Under the pieces are notes generated by a model. It did no database searches. It was not told the DNA's origin and saw nothing but the letters and a program-made list of their open reading frames with translations. This document shows positions 37,378 through 45,888 of a stretch of 64,000 nt of DNA, piece by piece. Position 1 is the first letter of the stretch. The number at the start of each line of letters is the position of its first letter. The position numbers were made by a program, and so were the translations under genes. Source of the DNA: Gemmatimonadaceae bacterium (GTDB taxonomy: Bacteria > Gemmatimonadota > Gemmatimonadetes > Gemmatimonadales > Gemmatimonadaceae); assembly GCA_037721215.1 (NCBI GenBank), contig JBBJNV010000010.1:62001-126000 (forward strand), read 5' to 3'.

Positions 37378-37590
37378 GATGGCCGGGGGGAATATATCGG
37401 AGGGGCTATTCCGTCGCAGTCAGTGGGAGGGGGGTAGCCGGTGACTGACTGTGGACATGCAAACCTGCCGGCTGCTGCGAGTCGGATGAAGAAGCACCCG
37501 CGCGTTCTCGAGACGGAAGGACTCGGATTTGCTGAAACGTGACGCCGACAAATGCCCGTCACCCGGATCGCAGGTCGAAAGACAATTCCC

Positions 37591-38283
37591 ATGATGCCGC
37601 TTGTTCATTATGACATTCTGACGCGACCACTCGAAGGCGCCCTCAGGCGCTGGAGAGCGGCTTTGTGGAAACTCGTTCCCGCATACACGGCAAGCGGACA
37701 CGAGTCGCGGGATTCTCTGCGAAGCAAAGCGAGGGGTCTTGAGATCGGCGTTGGAACCGGGGGCAGCTTCCCGCATTACCCGGCGGCTCTGATCATCGCA
37801 ACCGACGTATCACCTGCCAACATGGTGACCGCAAAGCAGAAGCTTTTCGAGGGAGCGGCGGAATCGAGTGGGGCGTGCGTATTGCTGGTCGTTGCCGACG
37901 TATCAAGCCTCCCGTTCCGCGACGCGACGTTCGACTGGGGCGCCGAGGCGCTGGTATTCTGCGAAGTACGTAATCCCGTCGAAGGCCTGCGAGAAGTGAG
38001 CCGCGTGCTTCGCGATGGAGCGCCGTTCCTGATGCTCGAGCACGTTCGCCCCGGTGGCGTGCTCGGCGCAATTGCCGCAGCAGTCACGCGAGTGACAGCA
38101 CCATTATGGGGAGAGCATTTTGATCGCGATACAATAACGGCGGTTCGCGACGCCGGCCTTCGTATTTCCAGCACGGCGTGGCTCTGGCGCGATGCGGTCT
38201 TATTGCTCGAAGTCCTCTCACCGAAAGCTTTGGGAGAAGTTCCGACGTCTGATTTGCGCGCTCGGTTGTCAGACGGTGAATAA
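37591..38283 (+). CDS. SAM-dependent methyltransferase (class I, type 11)
   Basis: About 230 residues from the ATG at 37591 (a further in-frame start lies at 37552). The SAM-binding motif I is RGLEIGVGTGGSF, followed by ATDVSPANM (acidic residue for the ribose), VVADVSSLPFRDATFD and VFCEVRNPVEGLREVSRVLRD. It looks like a small-molecule or lipid/quinone methyltransferase. It ends 42 bases before crcB on the same strand. Substrate unknown. Confidence 0.87.
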   Translation: MMPLVHYDILTRPLEGALRRWRAALWKLVPAYTASGHESRDSLRSKARGLEIGVGTGGSFPHYPAALIIATDVSPANMVTAKQKLFEGAAESSGACVLLVVADVSSLPFRDATFDWGAEALVFCEVRNPVEGLREVSRVLRDGAPFLMLEHVRPGGVLGAIAAAVTRVTAPLWGEHFDRDTITAVRDAGLRISSTAWLWRDAVLLLEVLSPKALGEVPTSDLRARLSDGE

Positions 38284-38325
38284 CCGAGGTTATTGGGATG
38301 AACGTGAGAATGCTATTGTTTCGTC

Positions 38326-38700
38326 ATGACAATTCTCGCCATCGCCGTGGGCGGGGCTCTGGGTTCGGTCCTTCGGTACCTGCTGGCGGGAACGGTGCAG
38401 CGATCCAGCGCGGCCGGATTCACTTACGGCACGCTCGCGGTGAATGTCGTGGGCTGCCTCATTGTCGGACTTCTGGTGCCGCGCTTCACGAATGCTGAAC
38501 CTTCCTCGGCGCTAGGCGGCCTGCTCATCGTGGGTTTTTGCGGAGGGTTCACAACGTTTTCTGCATTCAGTATCGAGACGGTGGGCCTCGCCAGCGAGGG
38601 AGAATATCTACGAGCCCTGCTCTACGTGTTTCTGAGTGTTACACTTTGTCTGCTTGCCACCGCCAGCGGGCTCGCGCTTGCACGCGCCCTCTTCCGCTAA
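38326..38700 (+). CDS. crcB: CrcB/Fluc fluoride channel
   Basis: 124 residues with four membrane segments. Family motifs are intact: GGALGSVLRYLLAG, YGTLAVNVVGCLIVG (the conserved Asn) and GFCGGFTTFSAFS (the Phe/Thr box that lines the fluoride path). It exports fluoride as an antiparallel dimer in the inner membrane. I looked for a fluoride riboswitch in the 42 bases upstream and found none, so the gene may be expressed with the methyltransferase. Confidence 0.95.
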   Translation: MTILAIAVGGALGSVLRYLLAGTVQRSSAAGFTYGTLAVNVVGCLIVGLLVPRFTNAEPSSALGGLLIVGFCGGFTTFSAFSIETVGLASEGEYLRALLYVFLSVTLCLLATASGLALARALFR

Positions 38701-38860: not shown

Positions 38861-38884
38861 TCATATTCGCTTTAGCATATATGA
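38861..38884. promoter_or_regulatory. arsR: Palindrome over the arsR start codon, candidate ArsR operator
   Basis: A 24-base dyad reads TCATAT-nn-GCT-nn-AGC-nn-ATATGA, with 18 of 24 positions symmetric. The right arm contains the arsR ATG (38881). ArsR/SmtB proteins bind imperfect dyads of this kind. There is no Shine-Dalgarno near the ATG, so the mRNA may be leaderless or weakly translated. Confidence 0.6.
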
Positions 38885-39258
38885 GACTTCTTCATCCGGG
38901 TACTCCGGGCAGCATTGACGATGTCGAGACTCTGTTCAAAGCGTTCGCCGATCCGACCCGCCTCCGAATTCTCAACATTCTGGTGGCGGGCGAACTCTGC
39001 GTCTGCGATATCGTGACGATCCTCGACCTGCCGCAGCCGATGGTTTCGAGACACCTCGCGCTGCTCAGAAACGCGGATCTCGTTGAGGTGACGCGGGAGT
39101 GGAAGTACGCGCACTACCGCCTCGCCGGCCCCGCGAACACCGTCCACCGGACGCTCATCAACTGCGTGCGCTCCTGCTTCGCGGGAATCGACTCTCTCGG
39201 CCGCGAGCGCGACCTTGCATCACGCCAACTCAAGGAGAGGGAATCCGACCCATGCTGA
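38881..39258 (+). CDS. arsR: ArsR-family arsenic-type metalloregulator
   Basis: 125 residues, winged-helix. The metal-binding motif ELCVCDIVTIL matches the ELCVCDL of As(III)/Sb(III)-binding ArsR, with the two Cys on helix alpha3; a further pair (NCVRSCF) lies near the C-terminus. The recognition helix is QPMVSRHLALLRNADLV. It should repress its own operon and release DNA on binding trivalent arsenic. The stop overlaps the start of the phosphoesterase gene (ATGCTGA), so the regulator heads a three-gene operon with an aquaporin. Confidence 0.9.
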   Translation: MRLLHPGTPGSIDDVETLFKAFADPTRLRILNILVAGELCVCDIVTILDLPQPMVSRHLALLRNADLVEVTREWKYAHYRLAGPANTVHRTLINCVRSCFAGIDSLGRERDLASRQLKERESDPC

Positions 39259-40010
39259 ATCGCACTTACGCTCTCATCTCCGACATCCACGCGAACCTAC
39301 CGGCGCTTGAAGCGGTGCTCGGCGACATCGCCGGGGGAACGCCAGCGGGAGTTTACCACCTAGGCGACCTCGTCGGTTACGCGCCGTGGCCGAACGAATG
39401 TGTCGCCCGCCTGAGGAACGACGGGATACCCGGAGTCGCCGGCAACTACGACTCCACGGTCGCCACCGACTACAAACATTGTGGATGCAGAGCTGACACT
39501 CCGCGCGATGAGGAACTCGCGCACATCAGTTATGAGTGGACACGCCGCGCAGTATCGGGAGAGACTAAATCATTCCTGGGCGGACTTCCGTTCCGCATCG
39601 ACATTCGGCCCGGCGGCGGGCATCTGGCCGGTCCGACGATCATGCTCTTTCATGCGACGCCGGTGAGCAACCTCATTTACGTCACTGAAGATCGTTCAGA
39701 CGGCTTTCTACAGAAAATGGCACAGCAGGCTGGTGCCAGATCGGGAGACGTAATCTGCTTCGGGCACACTCACGTGCCGTGGCACAGGGTTGTCGATGGG
39801 ATTCATTTCATCAACACCGGCAGCGTGGGGCGGCCCAAGGGAGGTGATCCACGTGCCTGCTACGTCGTTCTCGATATGGCGGGTAACGTTCCAGTCGTCG
39901 GCTTTGCACGTGTCGAGTATGATATCGAACGAGCAGCGGAGGGAATTGTCGAGGCCGGACTGCCGATTGAGTTCGCGGAGCATCTTCGCGCCGGCGGGAA
40001 AAAAGAATGA
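39252..40010 (+). CDS. Calcineurin-like metallophosphoesterase in an ars-type operon
   Basis: About 252 residues from the ATG at 39252. All five metallophosphoesterase motifs are visible: SDIHANLPALEAVL, LGDLVGYAPWPNE, AGNYDS (GNHD variant), an internal His in LFHATP and CFGHTHVPWH (GHTH). This is the YfcE/MJ0936-like two-metal fold that hydrolyses phosphodiesters or nucleotides. It overlaps arsR by 7 bases and the aquaporin gene by 4, so it belongs to the arsenic-type operon. Its substrate and role in metalloid resistance are not deducible from sequence. Confidence 0.9.
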   Translation: MLNRTYALISDIHANLPALEAVLGDIAGGTPAGVYHLGDLVGYAPWPNECVARLRNDGIPGVAGNYDSTVATDYKHCGCRADTPRDEELAHISYEWTRRAVSGETKSFLGGLPFRIDIRPGGGHLAGPTIMLFHATPVSNLIYVTEDRSDGFLQKMAQQAGARSGDVICFGHTHVPWHRVVDGIHFINTGSVGRPKGGDPRACYVVLDMAGNVPVVGFARVEYDIERAAEGIVEAGLPIEFAEHLRAGGKKE

Positions 40011-40717
40011 ATGGCCACGCCGATGCCCGACGCTGGATCGCCGAGCTCATCGGAACGTTCTTTCTCGTTTTTGTGGGCCCCGGTGCTGTCATGGTGAATG
40101 CAGCGAGCCAGGGAATAATCGGTCACGCGGGTGTCGCAATCGCCTTCGGTTTTGTCGTAGTGGCGATGATTTACGCGGTCGGTCATTTGTCGGGAGCTCA
40201 CCTCAATCCGGCAGTAACGCTGGGTTTCTGGTCGGTGCGACGCTTTCCTGCTCGTGAGGTGGTTCCCTACGTCATTGCTCAATGTGTTGGGGCAACGCTG
40301 GCATCGCTGGCGTTGTACGGAATCCTCGGCGACGTCGGGAGCATGGGGGCGACAATCCCTTCGATTTCGACCGCGCGGGCGTTCGCCGTGGAATGGCTGT
40401 TGTCCTTTGCGCTGATGTTCGTCATCATGGCGGTCGCGACGGATGCGCGCGCGAAGGATGGATTCGCGGCTCTCGCAGTCGGGCTCACCGTTGGCTTTTG
40501 CGCGATGATGGGCGGCCCGCTTACCGGCGCGTCGATGAATCCAGCGCGATCACTCGGGCCTGCTATCGCCGGAAATGTGTGGGTCGATCACTGGATCTAC
40601 TGGGTTGCGCCGATTGCAGCGACTGTTATCGCCGCCCGCGTCTATGAGTTTCTGAGGCCCGTAAAATACAGGGGTCATCACGCGATTCACGGCGTTGCAG
40701 GGGTGATTGCGAAGTGA
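40007..40717 (+). CDS. Aquaporin/aquaglyceroporin (MIP family)
   Basis: 236 residues, six membrane segments and two NPA loops (HLNPAVTLGF and SMNPARSLGP). The overall sequence is AqpZ-like at the N-terminus (RRWIAELIGTFFLVFVGPGA). By hand alignment to E. coli AqpZ the aromatic/Arg filter keeps the Phe and Arg but has Ala where AqpZ has His174 and Ala where it has Thr183, so the pore should be wider than a pure water channel. In Sinorhizobium meliloti an ars-operon aquaporin, AqpS, exports As(III); the same role is likely here. No arsB or acr3 is in the operon. Confidence 0.92.
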   Translation: MNGHADARRWIAELIGTFFLVFVGPGAVMVNAASQGIIGHAGVAIAFGFVVVAMIYAVGHLSGAHLNPAVTLGFWSVRRFPAREVVPYVIAQCVGATLASLALYGILGDVGSMGATIPSISTARAFAVEWLLSFALMFVIMAVATDARAKDGFAALAVGLTVGFCAMMGGPLTGASMNPARSLGPAIAGNVWVDHWIYWVAPIAATVIAARVYEFLRPVKYRGHHAIHGVAGVIAK

Positions 40718-40778: not shown

Positions 40779-41558
40779 TCACTCCATCCGCTTCAGCTCC
40801 CGGTAATCGCCACTCGTTCGCAGTGTAAGAGTGAGCGGCTCCCGCGTGCGGTTGCGCCAGAACCATCCGTGCATTCCGTCGAAGGCCGCGACCAGCACTC
40901 CCGTATCAGACGCCTTGCCCTGGCCCTTTGCGTAACCGTGATACTTGATTGCCGGCGACGCCGTTCGGTCTGCGTGTGTGTCGTAGTTCACGACGCCACG
41001 GTCGGTCGACCAGGTATAGTTCACGCGTGCGCCCTTCTGCATCGACAGCTTTATTTCCTTGCCTTCGTTTGGTCGCAACGTGACGCTTGCCTCATCGGTC
41101 TTCGGAGCGATAGCCGAAGCCGCCGGCGGCGGCGCGACTGCGGGAACGGCAGTGTTCGGAATCGATCTTGGGGGCAATGACCCAACCGCGGCGTTTGCAG
41201 CTCGCGGCGGGGGGGCGCCCGGGCTAGCGCCGGGGGTCGACCGCGGGGCAGTCACACCGACCGTAGCCGGTGTCGCTCCGGCCGCGACATCGGCAGCCAC
41301 GTCGGCTGCTGCTTCCTTCGCCAACTGAACCTTGATTTCGCCCATCTCCGTCAGCCCCAGCGCGCGGCCAATGCCAGTTGCATCCACACCGTACTCGGCC
41401 GGCAGCACCACCGTGACCAGCAGCAACAAGGCCACTACTGCCGCCAGCGCCGTGGAGCGGAGCAGTTTTCGGGACGAGGGAAGAGTCGTGTACGACGAAG
41501 GGATTTCTGCAGGAGCGGCGGCGCCTTCCGCCGCCGGTACTGAGTTTATATCTGACAT
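40779..41558 (-). CDS. Transmembrane anchor protein found beside HupE/UreJ
   Basis: 259 residues. A short cytoplasmic N-terminus, one membrane segment (about 32-52, ALAAVVALLLLVTVVLP), a long Ala/Pro-rich low-complexity stretch (about 80-150) and a C-terminal beta domain (about 155-259) with NEGKEIKLSMQKGARVNY, DTHADRTASPAIKYHGYAKG and FDGMHGWFWRNRT. Proteins of this layout are commonly encoded next to HupE/UreJ and are annotated as transmembrane anchor proteins of unknown function. Here it follows hupE by 9 bases as the last gene of the copper transcript. Confidence 0.8.
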   Translation of the reverse strand: MSDINSVPAAEGAAAPAEIPSSYTTLPSSRKLLRSTALAAVVALLLLVTVVLPAEYGVDATGIGRALGLTEMGEIKVQLAKEAAADVAADVAAGATPATVGVTAPRSTPGASPGAPPPRAANAAVGSLPPRSIPNTAVPAVAPPPAASAIAPKTDEASVTLRPNEGKEIKLSMQKGARVNYTWSTDRGVVNYDTHADRTASPAIKYHGYAKGQGKASDTGVLVAAFDGMHGWFWRNRTREPLTLTLRTSGDYRELKRME

Positions 41559-42931: not shown

Positions 42932-43321
42932 TTATCGCGCTGCTTGCGGCTCTACCACCAGCTTGCCTCGCACCATGTTCATGCCGCAGGCAAAGGTGAA
43001 CTCCCCGGCCTTGTCCGGCGTAAACTCGATCGAGGTGGTCTGGAACGCCGGCAAGTTGCGGGCAATGCCAAAATCTCCGAAGACAACCTGTTCGGTGCAC
43101 GAAGCTGATTCGTCCCGATAGAAATCGAGCTTCACGGGCATACCCTGCTTCACCGCAATGACATCGGGCGAGTAGCCGCCCTTGACGGTGATCTTGATCT
43201 GCTGCACGCCGGTCTCGCTGATGCCAACCGCAACCGTCTCCCGCTCGCCGAAGAAATACCAGAGCACTCCGGCGATGAGCACGGCCGAACCTGCAAGCAC
43301 ACCCATTTCCATGGGATCCAT
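42932..43321 (-). CDS. Membrane-anchored cupredoxin-domain protein
   Basis: 129 residues. One N-terminal membrane anchor (about 6-24) is followed by a cupredoxin_1 domain: QQIKITVKGGYSPDVIAVKQ, LDFYRDESASCTEQVVFGDF and FACGMNMVRGKLVVE. The Cys in SASCTEQV and the Cys/Met in FACGMNM are candidate copper ligands; the usual copper His is not seen. The ATG overlaps the copA stop (TAATG), so it is coupled to the copper ATPase and probably binds or hands over copper on the periplasmic side. Confidence 0.88.
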   Translation of the reverse strand: MDPMEMGVLAGSAVLIAGVLWYFFGERETVAVGISETGVQQIKITVKGGYSPDVIAVKQGMPVKLDFYRDESASCTEQVVFGDFGIARNLPAFQTTSIEFTPDKAGEFTFACGMNMVRGKLVVEPQAAR

Positions 43322-45888
43322 TATATCGCTCCCGTGGCAATACCCGGCGCGCGAAACCGCCGCAGTCTCAGACTGTTGGTCACCACCGACACGCTCGACA
43401 ACGACATGGCAGCACTGGCAATCACTGGCGAGAGCAGCCAGCCGGTAATCGGATAAAGAACTCCCGCCGCGATAGGGATCCCCACGACGTTGTAAATAAA
43501 CGCCCAGAACAGATTCTGTTTCACGGTGCGGATAGTCGCCCGCGAAAGTGCGATCGCGGTCACCACCCCACGCAGGTCGCCCCGGAGCAGCGTGATGTCC
43601 GAGGCCTCGATGGCGACGTCGGTACCGGTTCCAATTGCGATACCTACATCTGCCTGCGCCAGTGCGGGCGCATCGTTGATGCCGTCGCCGACCATTCCGA
43701 CCACAGCTTTGCCCTCCTGCAGCCGCTTCACCTCGCCCGCCTTCCCTTCCGGCAACACCTCGGCGAGAACCCGACTGATGCCAACCTGTTTCGCCACAGC
43801 GTCGGCTGTGCGCTTGTTGTCGCCTGTCATCATGACCACGTCGAGCCCCATCTGCTGCATCGCCTTCACTGCACCCGCAGATTCCGGCTTTATCTGGTCG
43901 GCGACCGCGATAATCCCGGCCAGGCGACCATCGATAGCGACATACATCGGTGTTTTTCCGTCGGCAGCAAGCCCCGATGCCCGCTCCTCGCCATCGCCGA
44001 GGTCGACGTTGCCGTCACGCATCATTTTGATATTGCCGAGCATGAGCATCCTGCCATCGACGGTGGCTTGGAGCCCGTGTCCGGGCACTGCGCGAAACTC
44101 ATCAGCCTTCCCAGGCAGGATGTTTCGCGCCTCTGCACCGCGCACGATTGCCTGGCCAAGCGGGTGCTCACTTTGCCGCTCAGCGCTCGCGACAAGGCGC
44201 AGTAATTCTTCCTCGGGCGTCCCGTCCATCACGATTACGTCGGTCAGCGCTGGCTCGCCTTTGGTAATCGTCCCCGTCTTGTCGAGGATCATGGTGTCGA
44301 GTTTGTGAGCCGTCTCCAGGCTTTCACCACCCTTGATGAGAACTCCGTTCTCTGCGCCGCGGCCTGTGCCCACCATAATCGCGGTGGGCGTGGCAAGGCC
44401 GAGTGCGCACGGGCAGGCGATGATCAATACCGCAACGAAGTTCACGAGCGCCATCGTGAAGCGGATGTCCACCGGCGCAAGAATGAACCAGATGGCGAAC
44501 GTCGCTATCGCGATGCAGATGACTACAGGAGTGAATATCCCGCTGATGACATCGGCGAGGCGAGCGATTGGCGCTTTTGACCCCTGTGCGTCCTGGACCA
44601 TTTTCACGATCTGCTGAAGCGCGGTATCACGGCCGACCTTCGTGGCCTCGAACTGGAATGCGCCGGTCTTGTTGAGCGTCGCGCCAAATACCTGGGCGCC
44701 GACAGTCTTCTCCACGGGGATGCTTTCTCCCGTGAGCATCGATTCGTCGATAGCGGAGCTGCCCTCGAGCACCACTCCATCCACTGGGATTTTCTCCCCC
44801 GGTCGGACGAGAACGGTGTCGCCCGGCAGTACCCGCTCTACTTCGATCTCGGATTCCATGCCGCCGCGGATGACGCGTGCGGTTTTTGCCTGGAGTTTAG
44901 CGAGGCGCTGGATTGCCTCGGAAGTCCGGCCCTTGGCGCCAGCCTCGAGCATGCGGCCGAGCAGTATGAGGGCAATGATGACGCTTGCGGCCTCGAAGTA
45001 GACGGGAACCATTGCTGTCCCGGACATGCCTGCCATTCCCGGCATTGGGTCGGAACCGGTGCTCCCCGCGAAGAACGATGGATACACGGTGGCGGCGATC
45101 GAGTAGATGTACGCGGCGCCCGTGCCGATGGCGATCAGCGTGTTCATGTCGGCGGCGCGATGTCTGAACGCAGCCCACGCACCGCGATAGAACTGCGCGC
45201 CGCAGTAAAAGACGACCGGCGTCGCGAGAGCGAGCTGAAGCCAGTTGACTCCGCCGAAGTTGAGGGCCGCGACCCGTCCGTGTGACATGGCGATGACGAG
45301 AATCGGCAGCGACAGAATGGTAGCTATCCAGAATTTCCTCCGGATTTCCTCATACTCCTTGCGCCGAGCCTCTTCCTCGGACCCTTCGCCGGAACCCATG
45401 TCGCGCGTTCCAGGCGTGTCGCGAACAGTATACCCGAACTCCTCTATCGCCGTGTGTATCGCGCGGACATCGGTCTCTCCCGTGAGATACTCTACCCGTA
45501 CCTGCGAAGTACCGAGGTTGAACGATGCTTCAACGACACCGCGGATGGCGTTGAGATGTTTTTCGAGTGGCTGCGCCGAACCTGACGGCCGCGCAGAATC
45601 ATCGACTATAAAATCGGCGCGGGCGGTACCGGTAGTTCCATAACCAACATCTTTCACGGTCGCGAAGAGTTGCTTCAGCCCCGTCGCGGCTGGATCGTAC
45701 TCGACAGTCGCGCGGGATGTCGCGAAGTTGACGTTGGCTTTTCGAACGCCCGTGCTCTTGTTGAGCGACTTCTCGATGCGGTTGGCGCACGCCGCGCAGG
45801 TCATCCCGGTGATCGGGAGATCTACCCGCTCACCTTCGCCGTCGGGAGTCGACCGCGTATGGCGCTGGTGATCGGACGCGACGGTCAT
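43321..45888 (-). CDS. copA: CopA-type Cu(I) P1B ATPase
   Basis: 855 residues. N-terminal HMA domain 1 has the copper site [16 protein letters not shown] second HMA-like domain (about 90-155) has lost its CxxC ([14 protein letters not shown]). The ATPase core has CPC in [12 protein letters not shown], phospho-Asp in [21 protein letters not shown] and the Cu-type membrane residues Tyr-Asn (FIYNVVGIP) and Met-Ser (MSLSSVSVV). It exports Cu(I) from the cytoplasm. A Met-rich loop ([14 protein letters not shown]) between the first helices may collect copper. The start overlaps csoR (ATGA). Confidence 0.96.

Follow-up and report, generated by a model that had tools for sequence, protein, structure and literature searches.

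A compact arsenic operon of Gemmatimonadaceae with a Car1-like metallophosphoesterase as probable arsenate reductase and a MIP channel as probable exit

Introduction

The operon arsR-aqpS-arsC-arsH of Sinorhizobium meliloti places a MIP channel beside ArsR and an arsenate reductase, with the channel as the sole transporter. In an earlier survey, 18/18 MIPs encoded in ars operons were likewise the only transporter (PMC4435449). A different arrangement is described for the Orf1/arsM ars operons of Paraclostridium and related anaerobes, in which ArsR is followed directly by a metallophosphoesterase (MPE), with ACR3 and ArsM inside the same operon (PMC12124457). That paper puts this MPE at ~40% identity to an As(V) reductase from Rufibacter tibetensis, Car1 (described by Shen et al. 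2024, Mol Microbiol 122:201, as cited in PMC12124457), and notes in it the two residues, Cys74 and Cys76, that are essential in Car1. A strain with such an MPE methylated As(V) (PMC12124457), for which prior reduction is needed.

The locus described here lies in the genome of a soil-dwelling member of the Gemmatimonadaceae, within a stretch of 64,000 nucleotides that was analysed as a whole (the window). Like the S. meliloti operon, it combines ArsR with a MIP as the sole transporter and follows the same logic; unlike that operon, it contains neither arsC nor arsH, and an unrelated MPE stands where ArsC would be. With the Paraclostridium-type operons it shares a Car1-like MPE directly after ArsR, but the MIP replaces ACR3 and ArsM is encoded elsewhere in the genome. 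Compared with Car1 itself, the window MPE belongs to the same family, has CxC cysteines at the equivalent place and adjoins arsenic genes; it differs in coming from Gemmatimonadota and in having a MIP channel rather than ACR3 as its partner. As far as we have searched the literature, the arsR-car1-MIP combination and a clear alternation with ArsC are new, while the parts were already known.

Operon architecture

The features of the locus are as follows.

38861..38884, no strand assigned: operator-like imperfect inverted repeat TCATATTCGCTTTAGCATATATGA, core ATATTCGC-TTTA-GCATATA at 38863-38881, covering the arsR start codon
38881-39258, + strand: arsR, ArsR/SmtB repressor, 125 aa; HTH_5 E 1.7e-17, ELCVCD with C40-V-C42
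39252-40010, + strand: car1-like metallophosphoesterase (MPE), 252 aa; Metallophos_2 E 1.2e-18, C77-G-C79; probable thiol-dependent arsenate reductase
40007-40717, + strand: MIP channel (NIP/AqpZ-like), 236 aa; MIP E 3.8e-58; probable As(OH)3 exit

The arsR and MPE genes overlap by 7 bases and the MPE and MIP genes by 4 bases, all on the + strand, which points to one transcript. Between CrcB and a convergent gene at 40779, the + strand holds these three genes and nothing else. A reading made from the sequence alone had proposed such an overlapping trio of ArsR, phosphoesterase and MIP, with an ELCVCD arsenic site and an intact phosphoesterase. The coordinates and Pfam domains bear this out: the ArsR site has its cysteines at C40 and C42, and the phosphoesterase keeps all seven usual metal ligands. 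The start codon (ATG) of arsR lies at 38881; position 38861, where the sequence-only reading had begun the operon, is the left arm of the inverted repeat. Homologues at 60-80% identity are found in Gemmatimonadaceae records and their relatives.

Other genes of the window lie close by. Immediately upstream (37552-38700) are a Methyltransf_11 protein and the CrcB fluoride exporter. The methyltransferase (37552-38283) was considered as an ArsM and ruled out: ArsM models score it far under their cut-off, and the true ArsM is on another contig. Downstream, a copper-type P1B ATPase with heavy-metal domains (43321-45888) is adjoined by a small cupredoxin-like membrane protein (42932-43321); both belong to a metal-handling neighbourhood.

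ArsR and its putative operator

The repressor has the HTH_5 domain and CxC metal site of an ArsR/SmtB As(III) repressor, and it would sense As(III) through its cysteines. C40, C42, C95, C99 and the C-terminal C125 are retained among orthologues; the conservation of the last three suggests that the As(III) site may extend past the ELCVCD pair. The inverted repeat at the arsR start is probably the site to which ArsR binds. Sites resembling ATATYYGC-N4-.CRTAT precede orthologous arsR genes in other genomes, and this pattern, which was derived after the fact, matches a single site in the whole 3.5 Mb genome when at most one mismatch is allowed.

The metallophosphoesterase and its relation to Car1

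The predicted structure of the window MPE (pLDDT 95.9) is that of a plain metallophosphoesterase with intact dinuclear metal ligands, and its fold differs from that of ArsC, whether of the LMW-PTP or the glutaredoxin type. The top structural match is 3rqz, a metallophosphoesterase of Sphaerobacter thermophilus (Z 28.8); SapH (3qfm, Z 27.5) and YfcE are also near. Both 3rqz and SapH share the fold along the whole chain, but 3rqz has no CxC pair aligned at the CGC place and SapH is an Ap4A hydrolase.

Over 52 aligned members of the family, the metal ligands D11, H13, D39, N65, H134, H172 and H174 are invariant, and so is C77-G-C79. The window protein is ~40-44% identical to its Hymenobacteraceae homologues. 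In those of Adhaeribacter and Pontibacter (Hymenobacteraceae, as is Rufibacter), and in that of Paraclostridium, the CxC cysteines are residues 74 and 76 counted from the ATG; the homologue of Pontibacter kalidii has one extra N-terminal residue and its first cysteine at 75. Compared through these homologues rather than through R. tibetensis Car1 itself, C77 and C79 form a putative redox cysteine pair equivalent to Cys74/Cys76 of Car1. The CGC motif is absent from the MPE paralogues, and in the tree all CxC MPEs form one clade (support 99/95) apart from the remaining MPEs. The window MPE is very probably a Car1-type arsenate reductase. The replacement of the histidine of the usual GNH(D/E) motif, giving GNYD, was weighed as evidence against hydrolysis and set aside, because the paralogues vary at this position too.

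Some relatives have a different character. On a plasmid of Picosynechococcus PCC 7117 (L161:3992-4816), an MPE relative with C74-E-C76 has altered metal ligands (CIH for DIH, GCWD for GNYD); it is followed by a second metallophosphatase, with no ars genes near, and is possibly a non-arsenic offshoot of the CxC clade. Another (L134:1523-2325, contig 132 of G038) is 30% identical, carries a CQC motif on a long branch within the clade and has no ars genes nearby.

Association with arsenic genes and alternation with ArsC

Among 61 genomes (the source genome and its relatives), the MPE is present at 58-80% identity in 29. It is found after ArsR and an ArsM-type methyltransferase, on either side of ACR3, or ahead of a MIP. 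Neighbours were counted at loci flanked by 1.3 kb or more, on the same strand and within 3 kb, and were compared with those of paralogues, defined as more distant MPEs from the same genome set. ArsR, ArsM, ACR3 or MIP stands beside 71/81 family loci versus 0/8 paralogues (p 6e-7, a significance inflated by genome kinship). These figures are a recount using the defined paralogues; the first count had included two non-CGC loci with ars genes (L066, L126), which are taken as family members with split or truncated frames. At the other 10/81 family loci, the seeds used recognise no ars gene in the vicinity, and one of these loci (L104) adjoins an ArsC. Annotated plasmid records agree, in that ars clusters of Rubrobacter, Paraclostridium and Pontibacter contain the MPE.

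The association spans at least Gemmatimonadota, Bacteroidota, Armatimonadota, Chloroflexota, Actinomycetota and Bacillota; being conserved so far beyond the source genome, it is not due to chance. The exact arsR-MPE-MIP trio recurs at L125, and the trio plus ArsM at L050, L064, L120, L123 and L130. The sequence-only reading would have counted as refuted had the trio been confined to the source genome, and it is not.

Different surroundings are seen in Chlorobiota/Kapabacteria, where CGC members (L073, L095, L102, L106) are without recognised ars neighbours and share a conserved, different context; in L073 and L095 a Leu/Phe dehydrogenase-like gene lies upstream. On a plasmid of Pontibacter kalidii (L160:2281-2736), a DUF6428 protein is encoded between arsR and the Car1-like gene of the ars operon.

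ArsC genes in the same 61 genomes were identified with a model of the thioredoxin-type enzyme. A clear hit has at least 69 bits and the P-loop CxxNSARSQ or one close to it; this threshold is under the curated cut-off of 174 bits and well over the phosphatase background of ~20-50 bits. On this basis 29 genomes have only the MPE, 18 only ArsC and 14 neither, and none has the MPE together with an intact ArsC (p 4e-7, or 5e-6 if the split ArsC of G021 is counted; genome kinship inflates both significances). Most ArsC genes of the 18 ArsC-only genomes sit in the same kind of operon as the MPE, with gene orders that include the following.

L174: ArsR-ArsM-ArsC-MIP
L168: ArsR-ArsM-MIP-ArsC
L175, L176, L181: ArsR-ArsM-ArsC
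L172: ArsR-ArsM-ACR3-ArsC

With its ars neighbours and its alternation with ArsC, the MPE occupies the genomic place of an arsenate reductase, and from these comparisons it appears to be a non-orthologous displacement of ArsC in otherwise equal operons. Beyond the order of the source genome, the two do occur in one genome in Rubrobacter and in an Anaerolineae genome, and G021 has both with its ArsC split, so the MPE is not always a replacement.

The MIP channel and the rest of the genome

The channel next to arsR is the only transporter of the operon, as in the AqpS type. At 98 MPE loci, a MIP is found beside the MPE in 15, ACR3 in 44, neither in 39 and both in 0 (p 8e-5, again inflated by genome kinship), and this exclusion accords with the survey of ars-operon MIPs mentioned above. 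The earlier proposal that this is an arsenic operon, which probably exports through its MIP much as the AqpS operon does, is upheld.

Scored by sequence against proteins of solved structure, the MIP matches rice NIP2-1 best (Lsi1; E 4e-45), a channel that passes arsenite. The same protein is described in PMC8556265 as the silicic acid channel Lsi1. The window MIP has both NPA motifs and, by alignment, a predicted selectivity filter F47-A166-A175-R181; most MIPs linked to an MPE in Gemmatimonadota and Bacteroidota also have F-A-A-R. Its side chains are smaller than those of F-H-T-R in AqpZ, and Lsi1 has G-S-G-R; as the filter differs from both, the substrate of the MIP is a guess. The NCBIfam AqpZ model scores the protein under its cut-off. 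A second MIP, 37% identical to that of the operon, is encoded on contig 8.

Inside the operon there is no arsB, acr3 or arsC, as the sequence-only reading had stated, and searches of the source genome, a draft that is 96.6% complete so that gene absences are provisional, also detect no SBF/ACR3, ArsB or ArsP and no canonical ArsC. Two proteins were examined as arsenate reductases and rejected: the one LMW-PTP has Wzb phosphatase as its best-scoring match and adjoins TsaC- and AroE-like genes, and the one protein with an ArsC domain resembles Spx/YffB and is without the catalytic Cys. An ArsR-ArsM pair is present on contig 4; its ArsM shares 67% identity with its counterparts in related operons.

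Discussion

The phosphoesterase, the puzzling member of the trio, is most likely the missing reductase, from a known but recent enzyme family. With a Car1-type MPE, the window operon would thus not lack an arsenate reductase but have a different one. We consider it highly likely that the three genes are a minimal arsenic-resistance operon, in which ArsR senses As(III), the MPE reduces arsenate and the MIP lets As(OH)3 out. ArsR would repress its own operon from the operator at the arsR start. Arsenate would enter by phosphate transporters and be reduced to arsenite by the MPE. In Car1, the first cysteine reportedly attacks, a disulfide forms and thioredoxin reduces it, with limited phosphatase activity. 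If the window enzyme works in the same way, its dinuclear metal site would hold arsenate while C77 attacks and C79 resolves, and thioredoxin would reduce the C77-C79 disulfide. Neutral As(OH)3 would then exit down its gradient through the MIP, and the separate ArsR-ArsM pair could methylate remaining arsenic. The logic of the operon (sensor, reductase, exit) is ordinary; its parts are unusual.

The sequence-only reading had instead cast the phosphoesterase as a hydrolase of an arsenylated or phosphorylated metabolite whose product leaves through the MIP, in analogy to GAPDH-ArsJ. In its favour, no metal ligand of an active metallophosphoesterase is lost, and Ap4A hydrolase SapH and YfcE are among the fold neighbours. 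However, no role of the invariant CGC in hydrolysis is known, the protein falls in a clade with Car1-like reductases, and it both alternates with ArsC in one slot and occurs equally beside ACR3 or with ArsM alone, as fits a supplier of As(III); we regard hydrolysis as very improbable. The MPE could also be a passenger, or a phosphatase of the regulator type, that the operon picked up accidentally; this view can appeal to nothing but the general abundance of metallophosphoesterases. It is already contradicted by the locus neighbourhoods and adjacency counts, the ars association being kept over at least six phyla while paralogues are without it, and we give it practically no credence.

An alternative that leaves the MPE a reductase concerns the cargo of the channel, which might be mainly antimonite or the methylated products of the ArsM that the genome encodes away from the operon. 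GlpF-type channels are described as conducting methylarsonous acid (PMC1440775), many MIP-bearing relatives have ArsM in the operon, and the source genome has its ArsR-ArsM pair on another contig. But MIP and ArsM are apart in this genome, the MIP alternates with the As(III) exporter ACR3 and never accompanies it, and the cell would be left without any recognised As(III) exit, so we think this assignment unlikely.

If the MPE is the reductase, the generic label 'metallophosphoesterase family protein' hides an arsenate reductase. We find it fairly likely that a redox-converted MPE displaced ArsC in otherwise unchanged ars operons across many phyla and that, together with ArsR and a channel, it makes up the whole of inorganic arsenic resistance in some Gemmatimonadota; arsenate reduction in such lineages would escape surveys that count arsC. 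Because members of the family occur widely and exchange places with ArsC in the operon, such surveys would undercount arsenate reduction in Gemmatimonadota and in other groups.
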